Source of the DNA: an uncultured Flavobacteriaceae bacterium
GTDB taxonomy: Bacteria; Bacteroidota; Bacteroidia; Flavobacteriales; Flavobacteriaceae
Assembly: GCA_938029725.1 (NCBI GenBank)
Contig: CALHGE010000013.1
Coordinates: 1 to 64,000 of the forward strand
DNA: 64,000 bases
Reading direction: 5' to 3'
Position 1 is the first letter of the stretch. Each line of letters starts with the position of its first letter. Positions 11,345 through 63,805 of this stretch are shown piece after piece. The notes beneath the pieces were generated by a model, which saw only the letters and a list, made by a program, of their open reading frames with translations, was not told where the DNA came from and searched no databases. Both the position numbers and the translations under genes were made by a program.

Positions 11345-12805
11345 ATGAGAAGAGTTCTGTTTCTACTAATTCTAATTGCACATACAATTACCCAAGGTCA
11401 ATCACAAAAAATAAAGCTTGCCGAAGCTATTAAAATAGCTCAGAAAAAATCACCGCAATACGTAAGAGCTCTAAATACTTATCAGGCAAGCTATTGGAGG
11501 TATCGAAATTTTAAAGCAGATTTTTTACCTCAATTAAGCTTGAATGCTACATTACCACAATACTCAAATGCGATCAGTAGACTTACTAATGATGAAGGAC
11601 AGGATATCTTTGTAAGACAAAATCAATCTATTATTGATGCTAATTTAAGAATACAGCAAAAAGTGCCTTTTACAGGTGGGCAATTCTTTGTTAATAGTCG
11701 CTTGGAGCGTGTTGACCGTTTTGGTGACGATAAAGCTACTAATTACTCATTTATACCCTTCTCCATCAACTATTTTCAAAATTCCCTCTTTTACAACCCG
11801 TACAAATGGAATCGAAAAATAGAACCGCTTCGATACGAGGAATCAAAGCGCAACATCATTGAGAACATGGAAAATATATCCTTGACCACCTGCCTTCGTT
11901 ATTTTGGCCTTTTAAAGGCGCAGGTAAGCCTAGACATCGCTAATAAAAATTTATCAAACCAAGATACACTGTTACAAATTACGAAAGGAAGGTTTAAAAT
12001 AGGGAAGGTTGCAGAGAATGAGTTACTGCAAATAGAATTGAGTCATTTAATTTCGAAAAATAATGTTACTACAAATACTATTCTATTGAAACGAACCTCT
12101 CAAGATTTAGCACGTTTCTTAGAGTTAAAAACAGAGTCAATCGAACTCGAAGTACCAGAAAAACTTGAAGATTTTGTTGTTGACGTAAAGAAAGCCATAG
12201 CGGAAGCTGAATCTAATAGAAAATCGGTTATCGAATTTAGAAGAAGGCGATTAGAAGCAGAACAAAACTTAGCGCAGGTAAAAGGAAGTAATCGCCTTGA
12301 AATAGATGTGCGAGCAAATTTCGGTTTGAATAGACGTGCCGAGGAGTATGATGCTCTTTTTCAAGATTATGACCAGCAACAAAATGTTTCTCTATCTGTC
12401 GGAATTCCAATTTTTGATTGGGGCGTGTCAAAATCTAGACGCAAAATGGCAGAAGCAGACTTAAGTTTGGTAGAAAATGATATTGACCAGGAAAAGCAGG
12501 CATTCGAGCAAGAAATATATCTGCACACGCTAAACTGGTCAAGTCAGAGAGATTTTTTGGCGACGGCTGAGAAAGCCCAAGAAATTGCACTCAAGCGATA
12601 TGAAATCACCAAAAAGAGATATATGTTGGGTAAAATAACGATAACTGATTTAAACATAGCCCAACAAGAAAAGGACAAGGCTATTGTTAACTATCTCAAT
12701 TCTTTAGAAAAATTTTGGGTTGATTACTATACCTTAAGAAGACTAACGCTTTATGATTTTACCACCGGCGAAAAAATAGAAATTGAAGATATTATTTTTG
12801 ATTAG
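11345..12805 (+). CDS. TolC family outer membrane efflux protein
   Basis: A 486-residue outer-membrane channel protein with a signal peptide (MRRVLFLLILIAHTITQGQS) and two OEP repeats rich in long coiled helices; the second repeat begins near 235. The DLNIAQQEKDKA segment near the C-terminus is typical of the family. It is the third gene after the adaptor and the permease and completes a tripartite export pathway except for the ATPase. The 61-base gap to the permease has no terminator. Confidence 0.9.
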   Translation: MRRVLFLLILIAHTITQGQSQKIKLAEAIKIAQKKSPQYVRALNTYQASYWRYRNFKADFLPQLSLNATLPQYSNAISRLTNDEGQDIFVRQNQSIIDANLRIQQKVPFTGGQFFVNSRLERVDRFGDDKATNYSFIPFSINYFQNSLFYNPYKWNRKIEPLRYEESKRNIIENMENISLTTCLRYFGLLKAQVSLDIANKNLSNQDTLLQITKGRFKIGKVAENELLQIELSHLISKNNVTTNTILLKRTSQDLARFLELKTESIELEVPEKLEDFVVDVKKAIAEAESNRKSVIEFRRRRLEAEQNLAQVKGSNRLEIDVRANFGLNRRAEEYDALFQDYDQQQNVSLSVGIPIFDWGVSKSRRKMAEADLSLVENDIDQEKQAFEQEIYLHTLNWSSQRDFLATAEKAQEIALKRYEITKKRYMLGKITITDLNIAQQEKDKAIVNYLNSLEKFWVDYYTLRRLTLYDFTTGEKIEIEDIIFD

Positions 12806-12949
12806 AGCGCTAGCTTATCAAATGTAAAATACAGTTTATTTTTATGATCTTTTGAGCATATCTTGTACATTAAGATACGTTCTTCTCTTTTTGAACGTTA
12901 TTTACTTGTAATCCATATCCTACTAGTATGGATAAAATATTACTTACAA

Positions 12950-14191
12950 ATGATACTTCCAAAACATCATGAGAATGAGGCACAACGGTTGGCTTCGCTA
13001 GACTCGTACTCCATATTGGACACACTTCCAGAAAAGGAATACGATAATCTCACAAAAATAGCTGCAGAAATATGTGGCACACCTATATCATTGATTAGTC
13101 TGCTAGATAGTGATCGACAATGGTTCAAATCTCATCATGGACTAGAAGTTTCGGAGACACCAAAGGACCATGCCTTTTGTGCCCACGCGATTAACGAGAA
13201 AGATGATATTTTTATCGTTCAAGACTCAAGAGCAGATGTACGTTTTCATGACAATCCTTTGGTAATAGGAGAACCTAAGGTGATATTTTATGCCGGTATT
13301 CCACTTCAAGGTGACGAAGGTTTACCCCTTGGCACACTATGCGTTATAGATCATAAACCTAGGCTTTTAAGTCAAAGTCAGGTTGAATCACTCAAAGCAC
13401 TCTCTGAACAGGTAGCTATGCTTCTACAACTGCGAAAAGCCAATGCTCAGCTAACTAAATTAAACCAAGAATTGAATGAGAAAAATGGAGAATTAGAGCA
13501 GTTTGCTTACGTGGCTGCCCACGATCTCAAATCTCCATTAAACAACATTTCAAGCACTGCAGGGCTATTATCAGATTGTTATGGATCAAACCTAGATGAT
13601 GACGGCAAAACTATGTTGTCTTTTATTGATAGTGCAGCAGAAAAACTGAGAGGTCTTATTGATGGTCTTTTGGAGTATAGCAAAAGTGAGAGCGTATTAA
13701 AAGAGAGAAAAACAGAAATTAATCTAGCCATTTTATGCACTGAAATTGAGGGGCTATTTTCTTTTGATTCTTCACTATCCATTACCTTAAAGTCAGCACT
13801 TAAAAACATATGTATTAATAGGGCTGCCCTTGATCAAATACTAATCAACCTTGTCGGAAATGCTATTAAATATAGCGACAAGAACGATGTGAAAATTGAA
13901 CTTGGAATCACCGAAGATAATACCCATTACCAATTTCACATAAAGGATAACGGCCCTGGTATTGACCTATCGCAACAATCCAAAATATTCCAAATATTCA
14001 AAACATTAGGCACTTTAGATAAATTTGGTAAAGTCGGAAACGGAATTGGGTTAGCCACTGTAAAAAAAATAGTAGAAAAAATGGGAGGCAGTATTCGAGT
14101 AGAATCAAATCAAAATCAGGGATGTAAATTCATTTTTAATGTTGAAAAAAATGTGGAGCATCACACAAACGAAATGGCTGTGGAGTATTAA
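12950..14191 (+). CDS. GAF-domain sensor histidine kinase
   Basis: A hybrid-free sensor kinase of 413 residues if started at 12950 (MILPKHHENEAQRLASL). A start at 12863 would add 29 hydrophobic residues that do not match the usual N-terminus, so I prefer 12950. A GAF domain (about 25-160; LDTLPEKEYDNLTKIAA...) is followed by a coiled linker, a HisKA domain with phospho-acceptor H191 (AAHDLKSPLNN) and an HATPase domain (N box LINLVGNAIKYS, G1 DNGPGI, G2 GNGIGLATVKKI). It has no membrane segment, so it should sense a cytoplasmic cue. No response regulator lies next to it. Confidence 0.9.
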   Translation: MILPKHHENEAQRLASLDSYSILDTLPEKEYDNLTKIAAEICGTPISLISLLDSDRQWFKSHHGLEVSETPKDHAFCAHAINEKDDIFIVQDSRADVRFHDNPLVIGEPKVIFYAGIPLQGDEGLPLGTLCVIDHKPRLLSQSQVESLKALSEQVAMLLQLRKANAQLTKLNQELNEKNGELEQFAYVAAHDLKSPLNNISSTAGLLSDCYGSNLDDDGKTMLSFIDSAAEKLRGLIDGLLEYSKSESVLKERKTEINLAILCTEIEGLFSFDSSLSITLKSALKNICINRAALDQILINLVGNAIKYSDKNDVKIELGITEDNTHYQFHIKDNGPGIDLSQQSKIFQIFKTLGTLDKFGKVGNGIGLATVKKIVEKMGGSIRVESNQNQGCKFIFNVEKNVEHHTNEMAVEY

Positions 14192-14466
14192 TCTCACTTC
14201 AATATTAGCCAGATTATTTAACTAAAGTAACTGCCCCATATGCACCTTGGCTTAGGTATATCGAATGGCTCAACATCTACAATCAACAGCAGGCTTACTA
14301 GCGAAAAACTATATGTAGATCAAAGAAAAAAAAGAACTATTTAAAGTTTGGCATTTACAATCAACTAAGCCCAGTTTTTTTTATGAGTTCAACGAAGCTC
14401 TTACTATGAAAACCTCCGACTAAAAACAAATGCTTCGGCTAGTTTTAATTCCAGTTGAATAGAATT
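14192..14466. other. Intergenic stretch without recognisable genes
   Basis: The 275 bases between the histidine kinase and the end of the dps remnant are AT-rich and contain stops in all frames I followed. I saw no promoter, RNA or repeat that I could defend. It may hold the decayed downstream flank of dps. Confidence 0.5.
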
Positions 14467-14945
14467 TTAGCTCTCCTCCGCCAACCAAGCCTTCATTAGC
14501 CAAACTGTTTTTCTTGTTCAGCTATAAAATCACTCATCAGACTATTGGTTTCTTCATCATTAGCTTCTGCTGAGGCCTTCAAAATTTTTATTTCGATAGC
14601 CCATACTTCTCATAAGAAATATACTATAACACGTATCGCCTTCTAATCACGGGTTACATTTTTTCCGACAGGCTCTGTAGAATGCGTACTATAGTCCGCA
14701 TAAGTATGCTCTGTTACGCCTACTAAGGTTAGAATTCGTTCTGCTACCAAAATTACCTTCATGTTGGTATCTGTGTATAATTCCTCGAATTTCACATGTA
14801 AATCGAAGAATCGTTTTCCTTTAATATTCCAATCTATGTTTCTTAAAATCAGCTAATAAGTTTAAAAAAATACTAATCTACTGTTGAGCTTATTACTTAA
14901 ATTTCCTGACTTCTGCGCACTTAATTCTATGCTATTTAGTTTCAT
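14467..14945 (-). pseudogene. dps: Decayed dps (ferritin-like DNA-protection protein) gene
   Basis: Read leftward from an ATG at 14945, the frame can be followed over about 160 codons of a Dps protein: MKLNSIELSAQKSGNLSNKL, then LRNIDWNIKGKRFFDLHVKF, VAERILTL, LKASAEANDEETNSLMSDFI, and an ending WLMKAWLAEES. Four in-frame stops interrupt it: TAA at 14862-14864, TAG at 14853-14855, TAG near 14643, TGA near 14609. A one-base deletion near 14499 shifts the last 11 codons. Spacing between blocks is conserved, so decay came from point changes. The ferroxidase HWN has become DWN. It sits divergently beside oxyR, the usual place and regulator for dps. Confidence 0.88.
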
Positions 14946-15040
14946 GATTTTCTATTTGCTATAAATTTAAAACATATTAATATTGATTTTAATAGATTTT
15001 ATTGATAGTTTTTATACCTTTATAGCTTAAATTATCAGCA

Positions 15041-15982
15041 ATGACAATTACCCAATTACAGTACGTTTTAGCTGTTGCGGAGTATCGAAATTTTACCCTT
15101 GCAGCACAAAAAAGCTTTGTAACTCAACCTACCTTGAGTATGCAGGTACAGAAGTTAGAAGATGAATTAGATATACTCATTTTTGATCGCAGCAAGAAAC
15201 CTATTGGAATAACGGAAGTAGGTGAAAAAATAGTAGCTCAAGCGAAAAACATTGTAAATGAAGCTTCTAGAATTACGGATATCGTTGATCAAGAAAAAGG
15301 GTTTATTGGTGGAGATTTTACTTTAGGAATCATTCCGACAGTAATGCCCACATTACTTCCTATGTTCTTAAAAACATTTATCAGAAAATACCCTAAAGTC
15401 AATCTAATTATAAAGGAACAAAGTACTGAAAGCTTGATTAGAAATATTCAAGACGGACATGTTGACGCTGCTATTGCCGCTACTCCCCTTGAAATTGAAT
15501 TTATAAAAGAACGCCCTTTATATTATGAGCCTTTTGTTGGTTACGTTCCAAAAAGCCATAGGCTGAGCGCTTATGAGAGTTTAAAGCCTGAAGACTTAGA
15601 TGTTTCTGATGTGCTTCTTTTACAAGATGGCCATTGTTTTAGAGATGGTGTTATCAATCTTTGTAAAGCCTCAAAAGACTTATCGAACGAACATTTTCAA
15701 TTACAAAGTGGAAGTTTTGAAACTTTAGTCAATTTGGCAGATGAAGATATGGGCATGACGCTTCTGCCCTATTTAAATACCTTAGAGCTAGATGACGTCA
15801 AGAAAAAGAATTTGAAATACTTTAACAATCCACCGCCAGCGCGTGAGGTGAGTTTAATTTATCATAAGAGTGAACTTAAAATACAAATAACTGAGGCATT
15901 ACGTGATGTAATTTCAGGAATCGTTAGAGGAGCAATCGCTTTTCAAGATGTGAAGATTATTAGCCCAATCAATAAAAAATAA
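15041..15982 (+). CDS. oxyR: OxyR, LysR-type hydrogen peroxide sensor and regulator
   Basis: A 313-residue LysR-type regulator with an N-terminal winged helix (MTITQLQYVLAVAEYRNFTL...) and a substrate-like sensor domain. The two redox cysteines are C199 (in DGHCFRD) and C208 (in NLCKAS), the same positions as the peroxide-sensing pair of E. coli OxyR, so it should form the activating disulfide on peroxide exposure. The gene is divergent from the dps remnant, with 95 AT-rich bases between them where an OxyR site would be expected. It is complete although its neighbour target is dead. A bidirectional terminator follows. Confidence 0.93.
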   Translation: MTITQLQYVLAVAEYRNFTLAAQKSFVTQPTLSMQVQKLEDELDILIFDRSKKPIGITEVGEKIVAQAKNIVNEASRITDIVDQEKGFIGGDFTLGIIPTVMPTLLPMFLKTFIRKYPKVNLIIKEQSTESLIRNIQDGHVDAAIAATPLEIEFIKERPLYYEPFVGYVPKSHRLSAYESLKPEDLDVSDVLLLQDGHCFRDGVINLCKASKDLSNEHFQLQSGSFETLVNLADEDMGMTLLPYLNTLELDDVKKKNLKYFNNPPPAREVSLIYHKSELKIQITEALRDVISGIVRGAIAFQDVKIISPINKK

Positions 15983-16010
15983 AACCCCAGCTTTTTGGCT
16001 GGGGTTTTAT
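15981..16010. terminator. Bidirectional intrinsic terminator between oxyR and the 65-residue gene
   Basis: Stem ccccagc (15985-15991) pairs with gctgggg (15998-16004), flanked by aaaa on the left and tttta on the right. It can stop transcription from both sides of this convergent pair; the small gene ends at 16011. Confidence 0.92.
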
Positions 16011-16208
16011 TTATGCTTTCAAATAAATTAGACTTACATGTAATTCTGGTTTATCGTTAATAAACTGCTGTAACCAGAGTTTGAGTTCTTCAATTTCTTC
16101 AGGTAGTAAACTTGAAACTGCTTTTTTTACTTCTTTGCAAAATAGCTTCGCGTCGAAGCTTACTTTTTTGAGTACTGTTTTAGTATACTCAAGCATTGCT
16201 CTAGCCAT
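16011..16208 (-). CDS. Small conserved hypothetical protein (65 aa)
   Basis: A 65-residue, probably helical and cytoplasmic protein (MARAMLEYTKTVLKKVSFDA...LLPEEIEELKLWLQQF). I recognise the opening MARAMLEYTKTVL as common in flavobacterial genomes but no function is known to me. It has its own terminator shared with oxyR and a 164-base upstream gap shared with the divergent PBP4 gene. No membrane segment or metal motif is visible. Confidence 0.75.
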   Translation of the reverse strand: MARAMLEYTKTVLKKVSFDAKLFCKEVKKAVSSLLPEEIEELKLWLQQFINDKPELHVSLIYLKA

Positions 16209-16372
16209 ATTTCAAAATGTTTAATTAATTAGTAGTTATTCGGGCTTTTTACTTCTCTAAAGTTAAACAAAAAAGCATATAAGTTATTGCTAGGGTTTTG
16301 TTAAAAATTAGATAAATTCATGTTAAGTCAATTTGTTCTCAATAGATTAGATATTTTCCTATTTTTAAACAA

Positions 16373-17638
16373 ATGAAAAAAACATCCATATACTTTGTAT
16401 TTTTCACCTTTATTATAGGGTGTTCAGGCACAAAACGCAGTGTTCAAAAAAGCACCCAAAAGATTTTAGCTTCCAAATTTTACAGTAATCAATTCACAGG
16501 TTTTTTGGTGGTAAATCCAGAAAATAAGGATACACTGCTGAATGTTAACAGTGAAAAGTATTTTACCCCCGCGAGCAATACAAAAATATTTACCCTATTT
16601 TCAGTTTTAGAGCTATTACCTGATCGTATTCCTGCTTTAAAATATATTGAGCAAAACGATACCCTATATTTTGAAGGAACAGGTGACCCAAGCCTCTTAC
16701 ACTCTTATTTCCAAAACAATAAAACCATTGATTTCTTATCGAATTATAAAAACCTTGCCTTACATCTAAACAATTTTGGGGAAGAAAAATATGGCCCCGG
16801 TTGGGCTTGGGAAGACTATCAATACTATTTTCAACCTGAAAAAGGACCGCTACCCATGTACGGTAATGTGACTACACTTTATAACACCCCAAGTTTGCAG
16901 GTCACTCCTGCTTATTTTAAGGATTCAATAGTGAGCATCGATTTTAAACGAAATAGAGCGCTAGAACAAAATCGCTTCTACTTCTCAGCTACGCGCAAGG
17001 ACACCGTTGAAACTCCATTTCGAACAGACGCCATACTTACCCAAATTTTACTAGAAAATGTTTTACAACGAAAAGTGAGATTTTCTACACAAATGCCCAC
17101 AGGAGAAAAAAAGCTTGTCTACAGCGTTTCTTCAGATTCGGTTTACAAAAGAATGATGCATGAAAGTGATAATTTTTTAGCAGAACAGCTACTCTTGGTA
17201 GCGGCTTCGACACTTTCGGATACCCTAAGTAGCACTGCCGTTCGCGACTATATCTTGTCTAATGCACTAGCAGATTTAGAACAAACTCCAAGATGGGTAG
17301 ATGGTTCGGGGCTTTCAAGGTATAATTTATTTACACCAGAATCTATAGTACATGTTTTAAGTAAGCTATATCGCACTATTTCAAGAGAACGTTTGTTTGA
17401 TTTTTTTCCTAAAGGTGGCAAAGGCACTTTGAAAGACTGGTACGCTGGTGACCCTGAGCCATATTTATTTGCAAAAACTGGAAGCGTAGGTAATACGCAT
17501 AATATAAGTGGATATCTTATCACAAAGTCTGGTAAAACATTGATTTTTAGTTTTATGAACAATCACTTTAAACACCCATCATCAGAAGTAAAAAAGCAGA
17601 TGGAACAAATTTTTGAAGAAATTCGAGATACGTATTGA
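16373..17638 (+). CDS. D-alanyl-D-alanine carboxypeptidase/endopeptidase, PBP4 family (peptidase S13), lipoprotein
   Basis: A 421-residue peptidoglycan hydrolase of the S13 (DacB) family that cuts D-Ala-D-Ala ends or cross-links. All three penicillin-binding motifs are present: SNTK (S68 nucleophile, K71), SDN (S265-N267) and KTG (K368-G370). The N-terminus MKKTSIYFVFFTFIIGCSG has a lipobox ending at C17, so it is predicted to be a membrane-anchored periplasmic lipoprotein, whereas many relatives have a plain signal peptide. It appears to be monocistronic. Confidence 0.92.
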   Translation: MKKTSIYFVFFTFIIGCSGTKRSVQKSTQKILASKFYSNQFTGFLVVNPENKDTLLNVNSEKYFTPASNTKIFTLFSVLELLPDRIPALKYIEQNDTLYFEGTGDPSLLHSYFQNNKTIDFLSNYKNLALHLNNFGEEKYGPGWAWEDYQYYFQPEKGPLPMYGNVTTLYNTPSLQVTPAYFKDSIVSIDFKRNRALEQNRFYFSATRKDTVETPFRTDAILTQILLENVLQRKVRFSTQMPTGEKKLVYSVSSDSVYKRMMHESDNFLAEQLLLVAASTLSDTLSSTAVRDYILSNALADLEQTPRWVDGSGLSRYNLFTPESIVHVLSKLYRTISRERLFDFFPKGGKGTLKDWYAGDPEPYLFAKTGSVGNTHNISGYLITKSGKTLIFSFMNNHFKHPSSEVKKQMEQIFEEIRDTY

Positions 17639-52647: not shown

Positions 52648-53550
52648 TCATTTTGAAAATGTCATTTCATTTTCTTTATCCTTCCGAGAAGAAGTATGTA
52701 TTCCTAATTCTGCAATAATCAATAAAGGCACTTGTGTATGAAACGCAATCCTTTTAATGACAGATTCGCGGGTCATTTTCTCCAAATAACTATGCTGATA
52801 GTTCAACATAGCAAGCAAATGAATATCAAGTTCTTCTGTAAATACTTCAAGCGTTTTAGATATTGAATTTAATTCAGAAACGGTATGTACATAATGTTGA
52901 ATATCGTTCAGATATTTGCGTAACATACTAAGGTTAAATTGCTGTAATTCAGTCAAGGCCTTTATTTCATACTGCACATGAACAATCCGAATGGTAGCAT
53001 TAAAGGTTTTGGCCATTTCTTTTAAAGGCTGCAGCTCAGATTTAGTATAGAACCTATTAAAACTAGTAGCAAATGCAATTTCATTCGGTTTTACAAACTC
53101 ATAATATTGTGGAACCGCCAAAATTGGACAATTCTTTATTGATTTAATAATACGAACGGTATTACTTCCCATAAAAACCTCATCAAAACCAGAAGCACCT
53201 TTTGTTCCGGCAACTACTAAATCAATCTTTTGTTTTTCAATAGCCTCTTTGACTTCGTCCACCAAAAAACTAAAAGAAGAACTAGTCTTAAAGCTGTGTC
53301 TAGGGTTTTTATAGGTTTTGCAAATTCGTTTAATTATATTTTGCAAACCTCGTTTTGAGGATAATTGAGCGGTATTCTCAAACATCCCTACTTGAACTGT
53401 TGCTGCCATAAAACGACTACTGGCTATTGCAGGCGTATACGAATTTAAGAGATGAAAAACACAGTCTTGATTTTTAAATAGTTCAAGCGCATATCGCGTA
53501 GCGTTCCATGCATTTTCAGAAAAATCTGTAGGTATGAGTATGTTTTTCAT
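52648..53550 (-). CDS. Universal stress protein, two UspA domains
   Basis: A 300-residue protein with a UspA domain at the N-terminus (MKNILIPTDFSENAWNATRY; ATP loop GTKGASGFDEVFMGSNTVRI near 117) and a second degenerate domain (about 160-290). Tandem Usp proteins are common in Bacteroidota. An Fnr-like palindrome (53607-53618) lies 57 bases upstream of its start, so it probably belongs to the low-oxygen regulon. Downstream of the Crp/Fnr gene on the same strand (90-base gap). Confidence 0.9.
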   Translation of the reverse strand: MKNILIPTDFSENAWNATRYALELFKNQDCVFHLLNSYTPAIASSRFMAATVQVGMFENTAQLSSKRGLQNIIKRICKTYKNPRHSFKTSSSFSFLVDEVKEAIEKQKIDLVVAGTKGASGFDEVFMGSNTVRIIKSIKNCPILAVPQYYEFVKPNEIAFATSFNRFYTKSELQPLKEMAKTFNATIRIVHVQYEIKALTELQQFNLSMLRKYLNDIQHYVHTVSELNSISKTLEVFTEELDIHLLAMLNYQHSYLEKMTRESVIKRIAFHTQVPLLIIAELGIHTSSRKDKENEMTFSK

Positions 53551-53606
53551 CCACTTTTTATTGTATTCTTTACGGTAAAAGTAAGCTGATAACTATGCCT
53601 AAACTA

Positions 53607-53618
53607 TGACATTTGTCA
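53607..53618 (-). promoter_or_regulatory. Fnr/Crp-type palindrome upstream of the universal stress gene
   Basis: TGACATTTGTCA, perfect palindrome arms TGACA/TGTCA around TT, 57 bases before the UspA-domain gene start and 23 bases past... upstream of nothing else on its other side except the end of the Crp/Fnr gene. Same spacing and nearly the same sequence as the other two sites. Confidence 0.75.
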
Positions 53619-53640
53619 GCTTTTGTGAAGAGAAGGAAAT

Positions 53641-54330
53641 CTAAAAACCTTTGATTAACTCTTTAAGTTGTTTTTCATCAACAACACCTATTTGCTTCCC
53701 TAAGGTTTTAATAAATCCCCTTTTTTTGAATTCAGAAATAATACGGATACAAGACTCTGTGGCAGTACCAACGACGTTTGCATAATCTTCACGAGAAAGG
53801 CTTAATTTCAGAAAGCCTTCTTCGTCTTCTCCATAATTTTTCTTTAGGTACAAAAAAGCTTCGGCCATACGCTGTTTTACTGTTTTTTGAGACATATTCA
53901 CAATAACATCATCAGCTTCTTTAAGATCATGAGCCATATGACGTAAAACTTCTACTGCAAAATTAGGATTCGTATTCAAAGCATCAGAAATAATTTCTTT
54001 AGGAATAAAACAAACTTCCATATCACTTACCGCCACAGCACTTAAATTTGTAGATTCTTCTGCAATTACCGAACGTTGCCCCATCACTTCACCCTTACTT
54101 ACAAGCTTTACAATTTGATCTTTGCCGTTGGAACTTAATTTAGAAAGTTTAGAAACCCCTCCACGAACACAAAAAACACCATCTAATTTTTCACCTTCTT
54201 CAAAAAGAGCTTCCCCTTTTTTGATAGTTTTAGAAATTTTAGAATCAGAGACTTTTTTCAATTCTGCTTTGCTCATTGCACGTAAAGAATTGAATTGTCT
54301 AACGATGCAATTTTCACACCTATTTTCCAT
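53641..54330 (-). CDS. Crp/Fnr family transcriptional regulator
   Basis: A 229-residue regulator: cyclic-nucleotide-binding-type beta domain (about 20-130), dimerisation helix (VIVNMSQKTVKQRMAEAFLYL) and winged helix (about 170-225) whose recognition helix ATESCIRIISEF keeps E192 and R196, the pair that reads TGA/TCA half-sites. Cysteines at 5, 8 (CENC), 54 and 107 are a possible iron-sulfur set; if it binds one it would be an oxygen sensor. It is divergent from ccoI, with a TGACA/TGTCA palindrome midway, so it likely controls both itself and the oxidase genes. Confidence 0.9.
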   Translation of the reverse strand: MENRCENCIVRQFNSLRAMSKAELKKVSDSKISKTIKKGEALFEEGEKLDGVFCVRGGVSKLSKLSSNGKDQIVKLVSKGEVMGQRSVIAEESTNLSAVAVSDMEVCFIPKEIISDALNTNPNFAVEVLRHMAHDLKEADDVIVNMSQKTVKQRMAEAFLYLKKNYGEDEEGFLKLSLSREDYANVVGTATESCIRIISEFKKRGFIKTLGKQIGVVDEKQLKELIKGF

Positions 54331-59714: not shown

Positions 59715-59906
59715 ATGTTCAAATTCGTAAAAGGTTACCTAGAGAGTATAGATGGTGTGGCGACATACCCTATGATATCGTTATTGATTTTCTTTTTCTT
59801 CTTTGTAATTCTATTTCTGTGGGTATTTACTGCATCAAAAAAACATATAACAGAGATGAGCGAAATGCCATTAGATACTAATAACCAACAAAACCTAGAG
59901 CTATGA
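59715..59906 (+). CDS. ccoQ: CcoQ-like cbb3 oxidase small subunit
   Basis: A 63-residue protein with one membrane segment (about 17-42, ATYPMISLLIFFFFFVILFLW) and a polar tail. CcoQ is a stability factor of the oxidase. Its stop overlaps the ccoP start by 4 bases (ATGA), so the two are coupled. Assignment is by position and topology. Confidence 0.85.
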   Translation: MFKFVKGYLESIDGVATYPMISLLIFFFFFVILFLWVFTASKKHITEMSEMPLDTNNQQNLEL

Positions 59907-60859
59907 AAAATTCAATTTCATGGTTAAGAGTGGTAACACTATTCTTTTCCGTATTTGCCCTTATGGAATTCTTTATAGATTCTGGAGCTAAACCTGCCTT
60001 TATTGAATACCCTTTAGCCTCCCTATTCTTGCTATTGATATTGCTTGTTTTGATCGGTGTAGAACTGATACTTGCATCAGTAGAAAATGTACTATTTCAA
60101 ACACTTACAGAGCCTGCTAAAGAACGTTACCTCGCCAATAAATCAAAATCTTGGGAATGGAAATGGGCTATAGAAACTTATCAGAATCTTTTGGGCTCGA
60201 AACCCATGGAGGAAGAAGGAGAGATTACACTAGACCACAATTATGATGGTATTCGTGAGTTAGACAATAAACTGCCGCCTTGGTGGGTATATATGTTTTA
60301 TGCCACTATCATTTTTGCAGTAGCCTACTTGGTGCGGTTCGAAATTATGAACGACTATGACCAAGACCTAGAATATGAGCAAGAGGTAGCCGCAGCCCAA
60401 TTAGAAATAGAAGCATATAAAAAAACTGCAAAAGGTTTAGTTGATGTAAATACCGTAACCTTATTGACAGATGCGTCTGACCTGAAAGCTGGAAAAACAA
60501 TTTTTGAAACCAACTGTGTTGCCTGTCATATGGCAGACGGCGGTGGTGGTATCGGTCCAAATCTTACCGACTCAAACTGGATTCTTGGTGGAGGCATTAA
60601 AAACGTGTTCAGTACGGTATCAGAAGGTGGTCGAGATGGAAAAGGGATGGTTGCTTGGAAACAGATTTTAAAACCAGCAGAAATGGCACAGGTCTCAAGC
60701 TATATCTTGATTGAAATTAACGGAAAAACACCAACAAAAGCTAAAGCCGCCGAAGGTGAAATTTGGATAGACCCTAACCCAACTGAAAAAGAAATACCAG
60801 CAATAGAAAAAGATTCAACAACACTAGCTACTGATTTAACGACGGCAGCCTTGAACTAA
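59903..60859 (+). CDS. ccoP: CcoP: cbb3 oxidase subunit III, single haem c
   Basis: A 318-residue subunit with membrane segments near 8-25, 34-58 and 125-145 and a C-terminal cytochrome c domain. Only one haem motif exists, CVACH (C205, C208, H209), with the axial Met in QVSSY-preceding MAQ (about 253); proteobacterial CcoP has two haems, while one is usual in Bacteroidota. The middle region is a long acidic linker. It overlaps ccoQ and is followed by ccoG after 50 bases. Confidence 0.92.
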   Translation: MKNSISWLRVVTLFFSVFALMEFFIDSGAKPAFIEYPLASLFLLLILLVLIGVELILASVENVLFQTLTEPAKERYLANKSKSWEWKWAIETYQNLLGSKPMEEEGEITLDHNYDGIRELDNKLPPWWVYMFYATIIFAVAYLVRFEIMNDYDQDLEYEQEVAAAQLEIEAYKKTAKGLVDVNTVTLLTDASDLKAGKTIFETNCVACHMADGGGGIGPNLTDSNWILGGGIKNVFSTVSEGGRDGKGMVAWKQILKPAEMAQVSSYILIEINGKTPTKAKAAEGEIWIDPNPTEKEIPAIEKDSTTLATDLTTAALN

Positions 60860-60909
60860 TACGAAGGATAACTTCTCTTATAAAAAAGAGGGATTGAGGA
60901 AGGTGTAAA

Positions 60910-62328
60910 ATGGAGCAAGACCAAGACAATTTTAGGGATACCATAGGAACCATAAATGAGGAAGGAAAGCGCGCTTGGATTTTTCCGAAAAAACCAAGCG
61001 GAAAACTATGGACGTATCGCAAATACGTAAGTTATTTTTTATTAAGCTTTTTGATAGCCGCTCCCTTCGTTAAAATCAATGGCAACCAGTTTTTGATGTT
61101 TAATGTATTGGAAAGGAGGTTCAATATTTTCAGCCTCCCTTTTTGGCCACAAGACTTTTATTTGTTTGTAATTTTGATGATTATAGGGGTCGTATTTGTA
61201 GCGCTGTTTACCGTTGCTTTTGGTCGTATTTTCTGCGGATGGATGTGCCCTCAGACTATTTTTATGGAGATGGTTTTTCGTAGAATAGAATTCTGGATAG
61301 ACGGAGACCGAGGTGCTCAAATTCGATTAGACAGACAAGAGTGGAACGCTGATAAAATAAGAAAACGAATCACAAAATGGATTGCTTTTTTTATAATTTC
61401 ATTCTTGATTGCTAACGTTTTTTTGGCCTATTTAATCGGTAGCGATAGATTGATTCAGTACATCACAGAGGGCCCCTTACAGCATGTAAGCACGATGATT
61501 TCTTTATTAATATTTACAGCTGTATTCTATTTTATTTTTGCATGGTTTCGTGAACAAGTTTGTATTATAGCATGCCCTTATGGCCGAATGCAGAGCGTTT
61601 TATTAGATAATAAATCCATTATTGTAGCCTATGACCATAAACGAGGTGAAGGTGAAAACGGTAGAAAAAAATTTCGCAAAAATGAAGATAGAGAAGCTCT
61701 GGGCAATGGTGATTGTATCGATTGTTTTCAATGTGTAAATGTTTGTCCGACGGGAATTGACATCAGAAACGGAACACAATTAGAATGTGTGAATTGTACT
61801 GCCTGTATCGATGAATGTGATACTATTATGGACCGGGTAAAGCTACCAAAAGGCCTCATTCGCTTCGCTAGTGAAGATGAAATTACGAAGAAGGAAAAAT
61901 TTAAGTTCACACCACGCTTAAAAGGTTATGCTGCAATTTTGACTATTCTAGTAGGTGTTCTAATCGGTATGCTTTTCCTTAGAAATGATCTAGAAGCAAA
62001 TATTCTTAGATTGCCTGGGCAGTTATACGAACATAAAAAAGGGAATATTATCAGCAATGTATACACTTTTAAATTGGTCAATAAAACTACTCAAGATGTG
62101 AACGATGTAAACTTTAAACTGCTTTCGCACAAAGGAGTAGTAAAATTGGTTCGGAATGAAGATTTTCAAGTAGCAGCTCAAGACTTGGCAGAAGGCACTT
62201 TATTTATTGAAATAAATAATGCCGCAATTAAAAGCGACAAGGAAAAAATAAAAATTGGAGTGTATAGTGGTGATGAATTAATAGAAACGACGATAACCGC
62301 ATTTTTGGCACCAAGAAGTTATAAGTAA
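60910..62328 (+). CDS. ccoG: CcoG: cytochrome c oxidase accessory protein (4Fe-4S ferredoxin-like, RdxA/FixG)
   Basis: A 472-residue membrane protein. Four to five membrane segments; polyferredoxin motifs CGWMCPQ, CIIACPYGRMQS, CIDCFQCVNVCPTG and CVNCTACIDECD bind [4Fe-4S] clusters; a C-terminal immunoglobulin-like periplasmic domain (about 370-470). CcoG is thought to reduce copper(II) during cbb3 oxidase assembly. It follows ccoP in the operon. Confidence 0.94.
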   Translation: MEQDQDNFRDTIGTINEEGKRAWIFPKKPSGKLWTYRKYVSYFLLSFLIAAPFVKINGNQFLMFNVLERRFNIFSLPFWPQDFYLFVILMIIGVVFVALFTVAFGRIFCGWMCPQTIFMEMVFRRIEFWIDGDRGAQIRLDRQEWNADKIRKRITKWIAFFIISFLIANVFLAYLIGSDRLIQYITEGPLQHVSTMISLLIFTAVFYFIFAWFREQVCIIACPYGRMQSVLLDNKSIIVAYDHKRGEGENGRKKFRKNEDREALGNGDCIDCFQCVNVCPTGIDIRNGTQLECVNCTACIDECDTIMDRVKLPKGLIRFASEDEITKKEKFKFTPRLKGYAAILTILVGVLIGMLFLRNDLEANILRLPGQLYEHKKGNIISNVYTFKLVNKTTQDVNDVNFKLLSHKGVVKLVRNEDFQVAAQDLAEGTLFIEINNAAIKSDKEKIKIGVYSGDELIETTITAFLAPRSYK

Positions 62329-62487
62329 GGCCTTTGCACAAAGCATTACCTAAGCTGGTAAGGGGTTGAGTTCGCGATCCAAACTAAAAGATTGCATCGC
62401 GGCAAGCAATGATCAAATACATATATTCTTGCCCGAATTTATAATGAGCCTAGAGCGATAACAGGAATAATACTAAATAATCTATTT

Positions 62488-62934
62488 ATGAAAATAAACT
62501 GGGGAACAGCAATCGTAATAACATTTCTAGCCTTCATTAGCTTTATTCTATTCTTCGTAGTGAGCATGAGTATGGATGATCGAGCTAACCATGATTTGGT
62601 TACCGAAGAATATTATAAGGCAGAATTGGGCTACCAGAAAGAAATCGACGCCGAGAATAATGCTACTAAAAATTCGGTACCTCTTACTATAAAAAAAACT
62701 ACTGAAGGCTTGGTTTTAAAATTTCCTGAGGCTATCGATTATACATCCATAAAAGGAAAAGTATCGCTATATAGACCCTCTAACAAACACTTAGATTTTG
62801 ATTTAGACTTGGATCTATCAGAAACATATTTGCTCATACCTGAGAAACTTTTGTTAGCTGGTCGTTGGAATATTAAGGTGTTTTGGAACTACGAGGGAGA
62901 AGATTATCTATTTAAAGAGCGTATTACCTATTGA
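62488..62934 (+). CDS. FixH family protein
   Basis: A 148-residue protein with one N-terminal membrane helix (about 7-28) and a periplasmic beta domain that fits FixH, a copper-transfer partner of the CcoI pump. The N-terminal MSMDDRANHDLVTEEYYK region is typical. It lies downstream of ccoG after 159 bases without a terminator that I could see. Assignment moderate. Confidence 0.85.
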   Translation: MKINWGTAIVITFLAFISFILFFVVSMSMDDRANHDLVTEEYYKAELGYQKEIDAENNATKNSVPLTIKKTTEGLVLKFPEAIDYTSIKGKVSLYRPSNKHLDFDLDLDLSETYLLIPEKLLLAGRWNIKVFWNYEGEDYLFKERITY

Positions 62935-62965
62935 AAAGAGAAACCAGATTTTAGAAAAGAATCAA

Positions 62966-63082
62966 GAGCCAAGAGAAGATAGTAAAGAGGAATAAAAATA
63001 TAGAGGCGATTGGGAGAAGACCAATTATAATAGTATGATTTAGGTTCTTCTTTATTTTCACTGCTCTTTACGCTCTCTTGCC
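62966..63082. repeat. Imperfect long inverted repeat between FixH and SafE-like genes
   Basis: The left arm (about 62966-62998, gccaagagaagatagtaaagagg plus aataaaaat) and the right arm (about 63049-63082, tttattttcactgctcttta and cgctctcttgcc) are reverse-complementary with a few mismatches and gaps. An inner attgg/ccaat stem sits at 63009-63025. The whole could fold into one long hairpin, similar to a miniature inverted-repeat element. It lies where a short intergenic gap would be expected. Confidence 0.65.
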
Positions 63083-63100
63083 TTATTTAAAAAACAAACA

Positions 63101-63805
63101 ATGCTTTTAGCTGCACTACTACTGGGTTTAATGGGAAGTCTACACTGCATTGGCATGTGCGGTCCTATTGCCTTTATGCTTCCTGTAGATAGAACAAATA
63201 ACTATAAGAAATTCGGACAGATATTCATTTATCATTTTGGCAGATTATTGGCCTACGGTAGTATTGGACTGGTTTTTGGCTTGCTAGGAAAAGGACTTTA
63301 TATCTTCGGAATGCAGCAAAAGCTATCCATCGCAACTGGTATTTTGATGATTCTTATCGTGCTAATTCCTTATAAAACCTTTAGCAAATACAATTTATCC
63401 AAACCTATTTATAGGCTAATGTCAAGGGTTAAAAATCGATTGGGACAAGAATTGAAAAAGAAATCACCTGATACATTTTTAACAATAGGCTTTTTAAACG
63501 GATTTCTTCCTTGTGGTTTAGTATATATGGCGCTGTTTGGAGCAGTAGCTATGGGTAACCCAGCAGAAGGAAGCTTGTATATGCTTCTCTTTGGTGCGGG
63601 AACAATTCCTCTAATGACCGCCACTATTTATTTTAGCGAGTTTTTAAAAGGAGCTGCCCGTAAAAAAGCACAAAGACTAATTCCGGTTTTTGTTATTTTA
63701 ATAGGAGTACTATTTATTCTAAGGGGTTTAGGCTTAGGTATTCCCTACCTATCTCCGAAACCTACTGTAGAATTAGTAACCAGTGCCATAGAATGTCATG
63801 AGTAA
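63101..63805 (+). CDS. Sulfite exporter TauE/SafE family protein (CcoH-type location)
   Basis: A 234-residue membrane protein with about six hydrophobic segments. The opening LLLGLMGSLHCIGMCGPIAFMLP (C16, C20) and the later FLNGFLPCGLVYMALFGA match the cysteine-containing SafE/YtfC group found next to cbb3 oxidase genes, possibly in copper handling. It is not a sulfite exporter by function evidence. The start MLLAALLLGLMGS is the only credible one. Confidence 0.85.
   Translation: MLLAALLLGLMGSLHCIGMCGPIAFMLPVDRTNNYKKFGQIFIYHFGRLLAYGSIGLVFGLLGKGLYIFGMQQKLSIATGILMILIVLIPYKTFSKYNLSKPIYRLMSRVKNRLGQELKKKSPDTFLTIGFLNGFLPCGLVYMALFGAVAMGNPAEGSLYMLLFGAGTIPLMTATIYFSEFLKGAARKKAQRLIPVFVILIGVLFILRGLGLGIPYLSPKPTVELVTSAIECHE

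Follow-up and report, generated by a model that had tools for sequence, protein, structure and literature searches.

Background

OxyR is a redox-sensing transcriptional regulator, and one of the systems closest to the locus described here is the OxyR regulon of Prevotella intermedia. In that species an oxyR mutant loses the induction of ahpC, ahpF and dps, so that there, too, an OxyR with redox cysteines has dps as a target (PMC7999485); from this dependence a dps target would be expected for the ancestor of the organism studied here. In Maribacter, Zobellia, Pelagihabitans, Cellulophaga and other Flavobacteriaceae, dps lies in the same place next to oxyR and in divergent orientation, mostly at 95-133 bp from it. 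The product, which in its functional form is a dodecamer that stores iron, oxidises it with peroxide and protects DNA, belongs to the Dps or mini-ferritin group of the ferritin superfamily (PF00210), and the closest solved chain is 3iq1_A, a 'DPS family protein', which is matched by the intact dps of a same-genus genome with an E value of 4.5e-48. As judged by titles and the openings of abstracts, we found no literature on the decay of dps or on ferritin-free Flavobacteriaceae.

In this work we analyzed a window of 64,000 nucleotides from an uncultured marine Flavobacteriaceae bacterium (contig CALHGE010000013.1, positions 1 to 64,000). A preliminary description of this DNA had proposed that dps has decayed in place beside an intact oxyR. 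The locus was characterized by comparison with its relatives, by genome-wide searches for ferritin-superfamily genes and by analysis of the region upstream of oxyR.

Methods

The assembly that contains the window (G000) has 3.8 Mb and a completeness of 92.15%. The genus set consisted of 14 genomes, including G007 (5.1 Mb, 99% complete), whose OxyR is 95% identical to that of G000, and G008, which carries an intact dps in the equivalent slot and whose contig starts within a macB-like gene; completeness is low in G005 (85%) and G001 (57%). The locus was also compared in 80 related named loci, and 50 of these were submitted to the whole-genome ferritin search, covering 49 genomes, of which at least four appear to be duplicates of genus genomes (G005, G008, G011, G012). 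A family-wide draw comprised 138 other Flavobacteriaceae genomes with a requested completeness of at least 95%, G007 being outside this draw.

The codon comparison used 16 of 30 dps frames, hand-picked and each of 159 codons without gaps. The codon model included 10 taxa, G000 among them, and the protein tree 20 taxa. Matches to PF00210 were sorted by bit score into ferritin-like (>110 bits) and Dps-like (about 59-103 bits), a split of our own. The families searched for iron storage and peroxide removal were PF00210, encapsulin, rubrerythrin, the monofunctional catalase and KatG. The pattern ATAGATWTTATYRATA was derived from the oxyR and katG sites, whose shared core was spotted by eye, and was searched with zero mismatches allowed.

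Results

The dps remnant and the intact oxyR

The features of the locus are listed in Table 1. When read through its four stops, the dps frame matches the PF00210 four-helix domain (E 4e-10, 41.1 bits), and a tblastn search with the intact dps of G008 finds it in the window, 66% of 146 residues being identical (E 1e-56); the resemblance to Dps is not due to chance. In comparison with Dps proteins the copy of G000 is traceable throughout, but an intact open reading frame is lacking, since it is broken five times, by four stops and one frameshift, and two of the five ferroxidase ligands are lost. We assigned these inter-subunit ligands (H, H, E, D, E) after Listeria-type Dps, and the aligned 3iq1_A carries the same residues at the ligand positions. 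H50, E54 and E69 are retained in G000; the change of HWN to DWN that had been described is H38D, and D65I was found in addition. The first stop, described earlier as one base away from the expected CAA codon, does replace a conserved glutamine codon. In the 16 intact orthologues 93 of the 159 positions are invariant; three of them are unreadable in G000, and 21 of the other 90 have changed there, compared with 0-3 in each intact orthologue when this is left out in turn.

Table 1. Features of the oxyR-dps locus, in positions of the window
Feature	Position	Strand	Evidence or comparison
TolC-like gene flanking the slot on the left	11345..12805	+	name from reading of neighbours
GAF-HisKA-HATPase histidine kinase, separating the tolC-like gene from the dps remnant	12953..14191	+	Pfam, comparison with G008
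dps pseudogene (ferritin-superfamily mini-ferritin), 159 traceable codons	14467..14945	-	PF00210 match, G008 orthologue, codon comparison
dps terminal stop	14467-14469	-	exact coordinates confirmed
Frameshift, codon 147, directly after an A-run	14505..14508	-	original frame continues to the terminal stop
Nonsense codon 112, TGA	14610..14612	-	T or K in 16/16 intact orthologues
Nonsense codon 101, TAG	14643..14645	-	E or D in 16/16 intact orthologues
D65I, second ferroxidase ligand lost	14751..14753	-	codon comparison; ligand assigned after Listeria-type Dps
H38D, ferroxidase ligand lost	14832..14834	-	codon comparison; ligand assigned after Listeria-type Dps, alignment with 3iq1_A
Nonsense codon 31, TAG	14853..14855	-	Y in 16/16 intact orthologues
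Nonsense codon 28, TAA	14862..14864	-	Q (CAA or CAG) in 16/16 intact orthologues
dps start codon	14943-14945	-	exact coordinates confirmed
Conserved element resembling an OxyR box, in the dps-oxyR intergenic region	14988..15025	+	upstream-region comparison, shuffles
Core of this element, ATAGATTTTATTGATA	14992-15007	+	one of two exact pattern matches in G000
oxyR, intact, Cys199/Cys208	15041..15982	+	open frame, Pfam, alignment

An intact dps could look broken through an error of sequencing or assembly, given that there is a single assembly, that no locus of the same species was among the related loci found, in a scan that may omit the genome of the window itself, and that the frameshift comes after an A-run. 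All three kinds of stop codon are represented among the four separate nonsense codons, and this, together with 21 changed invariant residues that include two metal ligands, makes such an error extremely improbable; the flanking frames are open, and random read errors are not expected to fall in one gene alone or to cause such an excess of amino acid changes. Slightly less remote, though still very improbable, is that the broken gene works as a recoded protein, a truncated peptide or an RNA. A TTTATA-like element about 20-25 bp upstream of the dps start resembles, by eye, that of the relatives, which would be in keeping with residual function, but recoding would have to deal with all three stop codons and a frameshift, and the first stop is met already at codon 28. 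A function as RNA was rejected, since 12000-17000 yields nothing in Rfam that reaches the gathering score and the fold is not unusual (z-score -0.84). The flavobacterial -7 promoter element is TAnnTTTG; only 7 of the 30 intact dps genes have it upstream, so that its absence in G000 carries no weight. We regard the dps region of G000, on its sequence, as a true pseudogene.

OxyR contains the LysR-type HTH (PF00126) and substrate (PF03466) domains, both over the cut-off, and its best NCBIfam match is OxyR PRK11151, with 203.8 bits under a cut-off of 329. The redox pair GHC-x8-C at 199/208, which had been read from the window, is present in all 88 OxyR sequences compared, that of the window included. 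The decay of dps beside an intact OxyR is thus borne out.

Among the 27 window ORFs covered by the Pfam scans, about half of those listed, we recovered the MsrA and a TrxB-like Pyr_redox_2 protein mentioned in the preliminary description, and the AhpD-like protein was not among them. At 52648-54330 and 59903-63805 the window also carries genes for a universal stress protein, a Crp/FNR-type regulator, a FixP-type cbb3 oxidase subunit, FixH and a DsbD-like protein, a cluster that resembles low-oxygen respiration genes. A 65-aa protein encoded at 16011-16208 (minus strand) has no Pfam match. Of the 80 named loci, 79 encode a counterpart with 62-86% identity, always convergent with oxyR and in 77 at most 560 bp away from it; the remaining locus, L119, ends just past oxyR.

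Age and mode of the decay

In neutral simulations from three intact starting genes, a divergence of 0.12 substitutions per site changed about 22 invariant columns and produced 2.5-3.1 stops, as compared with 23 of 92 columns and 4 stops observed in G000. The decay would then amount to some 0.12 neutral substitutions per site and is probably not very fresh, which suggests that dps has been dead for some time; from the earlier reading of a recent loss, decay in place stands, and recency only in part. With the 16 intact Dps proteins the copy of G000 shares 61-69% identity, as compared with 77-84% between the Dps of G008 and the other 15. No acceleration is seen in OxyR, which is 92% identical between G000 and G008 and for which these two differ by at most 1.6 points in identity to G006, G010, G013 and G003.

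In the codon model of 10 taxa the dps branch of G000 was not separable from the background (free versus single omega, 2dL 0.09), and omega = 1 was rejected on this branch (2dL 10.3, in a fit stopped at 60 iterations), with 2dL of 26.1 for oxyR of G000 and 3.8 for dps of G008 as comparison values. This result is evidence that does not favour a neutral decay of dps; we put it down to saturated synonymous sites and to a branch that mixes constrained and dead phases. As a test of relaxed selection the model is uninformative for G000 versus the background, and the count of invariant columns and the neutral simulation were used instead.

The locus in related bacteria

In G008 the gene order is macB-like, tolC-like, dps (minus), oxyR (plus), 65-aa protein, peptidase S13, msrA and nudix. 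There tolC-like and dps adjoin, about 18 bp apart, whereas in the window the histidine kinase intervenes; the TolC-like left flank is common to the window, G008, G004, G011, G007 and L081. Within the genus oxyR was detected in 13 of 14 genomes. An intact dps stands beside it in G008, G006, G010, G013 and G003 and the broken one in G000; G007, G002, G004, G005, G009, G011 and G012 lack it there, the last with only 2.6 kb of upstream sequence. In the 80 named loci, a full-length dps is adjacent to oxyR in 30, an adjacent and damaged one is found in 2, dps lies 4.6 kb from oxyR in 5 Arenibacter, and none is present in the available sequence of 43, five of which have less than 4 kb upstream.

In the protein tree well-supported nodes set apart two losses, one in the clade of G007, L081, G004 and G005 (93% support) and another in G002 and G012, which fall into a clade (98%) with G013 and its intact dps; G009 and G011 would represent further losses, on weak nodes. 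Judged from this tree and from gene content, the loss of the oxyR-linked dps is recurrent among the relatives. Support for the position of G000 reaches no more than 51%, and with such a weak placement the inactivation may be shared with the G007 lineage.

The two damaged copies are those of Maribacter sp. 4G9 (L134), with a stop near codon 30 and an altered tail, and Maribacter litopenaei (L117), with an altered tail; both are damaged at the end that is affected in G000 too. The interval from the tolC-like gene to oxyR (12806-15040 in the window; also in L062, L081 and L096) is a variable slot, which holds the histidine kinase and the dead dps in the window, a propeller-like ORF in G007 and a transglutaminase-like ORF in L081 (the latter two named by eye). 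In the five Arenibacter, macAB-tolC-like genes lie between dps and oxyR. No dps remnant above chance was found in the slots of G007 and L081 (best E 0.058), where other open frames are present.

Other ferritin-superfamily genes

In the assembly of G000 the search for PF00210 found nothing over the cut-off besides the broken dps, which does not support the proposal of a second Dps elsewhere in the genome. A second match under the cut-off (E 0.13) is MiaE, a tRNA hydroxylase (PF06175, E 1e-42), and a match of G007 at a loose limit (E 0.04) looks by sequence like the same MiaE. At E 0.001 there is no PF00210 match in G007. The family was absent also from G005 and G001, which may be due to their incompleteness. 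The encapsulin and catalase families were found in 0 of 14 genus genomes, and rubrerythrin had no match in G000 or G007; six of the seven rubrerythrin matches in relatives are their PF00210 ferritins at identical places.

By comparison, a PF00210 gene is present in 48 of the 49 genomes reached through the named loci, the exception, G063, being apparently G005. The 22 searched relatives without an oxyR-linked dps include 15 with a Dps-like gene elsewhere, 6 with a ferritin-like gene only and 1 with nothing. In the family-wide draw 9 genomes have no PF00210 match, all of at most 2.2 Mb, and all 127 larger genomes have one, so that for Flavobacteriaceae genomes of 3.8-5.1 Mb the lack of any ferritin is unusual.

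An intact dps copy could lie in the missing 8% of the assembly, and if this part held a Dps or a ferritin the cell would not be short of iron storage in spite of the decayed locus. The completeness of 92.15% leaves room for it, and 21 of the 22 relatives just mentioned do possess another PF00210 gene; we nevertheless hold this to be unlikely, because no PF00210 gene passes the cut-off in G007, which is so close by its OxyR and 99% complete. G000 is apparently a mid-sized genome without ferritin or Dps, and the broken dps apparently its last ferritin-superfamily gene.

The OxyR-box-like element and katG

The box-like element ATAGATTTTATTGATAGTTTTTAT is located about 50 bp upstream of oxyR. The longer box of the window is matched at 17 or more of 24 positions in 75 of 88 oxyR upstream regions, as compared with 4% of 1760 shuffles, in carriers of dps and in dps-less loci alike, and in 85 of 88 the best match starts 48-53 bp ahead of the start codon. 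A limit of 15/24 was little informative, being reached by 87 of 88 regions but also by 41% of the shuffles.

G000 has two exact matches of the pattern ATAGATWTTATYRATA, one upstream of oxyR and one upstream of katG, and in each of the 12 katG upstream regions retrieved from the genus a related ATAGAT-to-AATA core can be seen by eye. Across the 14 genus genomes the pattern has 12 matches, 11 of them at oxyR or katG, and its backward control has 3; since it was drawn from these same sites, the weight lies on the near absence of other matches. The only one away from both genes is G008:C302:25871-25886 (L219). Six of the 14 genomes have no exact match, and only G000, G008 and G011 have it at both genes; the exact pattern thus misses known sites, and other OxyR targets may have been overlooked. 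A matrix built from the oxyR sites failed to score the katG sites (best -5.6 to 4.8 bits). The box ahead of both genes, a putative binding site of OxyR, resembles the ATAG-type consensus of E. coli. The katG gene of G000 is a 753-aa open frame without stops, and stop-free katG is present in 12 of 14 genus genomes, including all 9 of good quality. With an unbroken katG that bears an oxyR-like box, low peroxide stress in the habitat, the other condition suggested in the preliminary description, is less likely.

Discussion

We consider it probable that in the lineage of G000 the oxyR-linked dps, a member of a divergent pair widespread in these Flavobacteriaceae, was inactivated and has been decaying neutrally as the last iron store, with OxyR being kept for oxyR and katG. 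A ferritin would have been lost earlier, which would have left dps as the final iron-storage gene of the ferritin superfamily. OxyR and its upstream box would be kept because OxyR may still activate its own gene and that of the catalase-peroxidase, the control of katG being most likely the reason why oxyR was retained. Peroxide would then be removed by KatG, instead of by Dps oxidising iron with it, and the loss may have been tolerated because KatG is sufficient. This differs from the P. intermedia regulon (PMC7999485) in that dps is dead in G000 and exact matches of the box pattern are confined there to the regions ahead of oxyR and katG.

The dps event is in itself an ordinary gene decay that is recurrent in the family; the end state is less ordinary. 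Ferritin-superfamily genes are near-universal in the larger genomes of Flavobacteriaceae, and the decaying dps seems to be the loss of a last copy in progress. Since this copy coexists with relatives whose dps is intact, damaged or missing, the order of losses, ferritin and then Dps with OxyR and KatG kept, is testable in culturable relatives. More tentatively, and with the odds somewhat against it, these genomes may represent a marine flavobacterial clade of 3.8-5.1 Mb that has neither ferritin, bacterioferritin, Dps nor encapsulin, in which the OxyR regulon has shrunk to little beyond oxyR and katG and iron is buffered independently of ferritin. If true, this would be ferritin-independent iron buffering of a way not yet described for Flavobacteriaceae.
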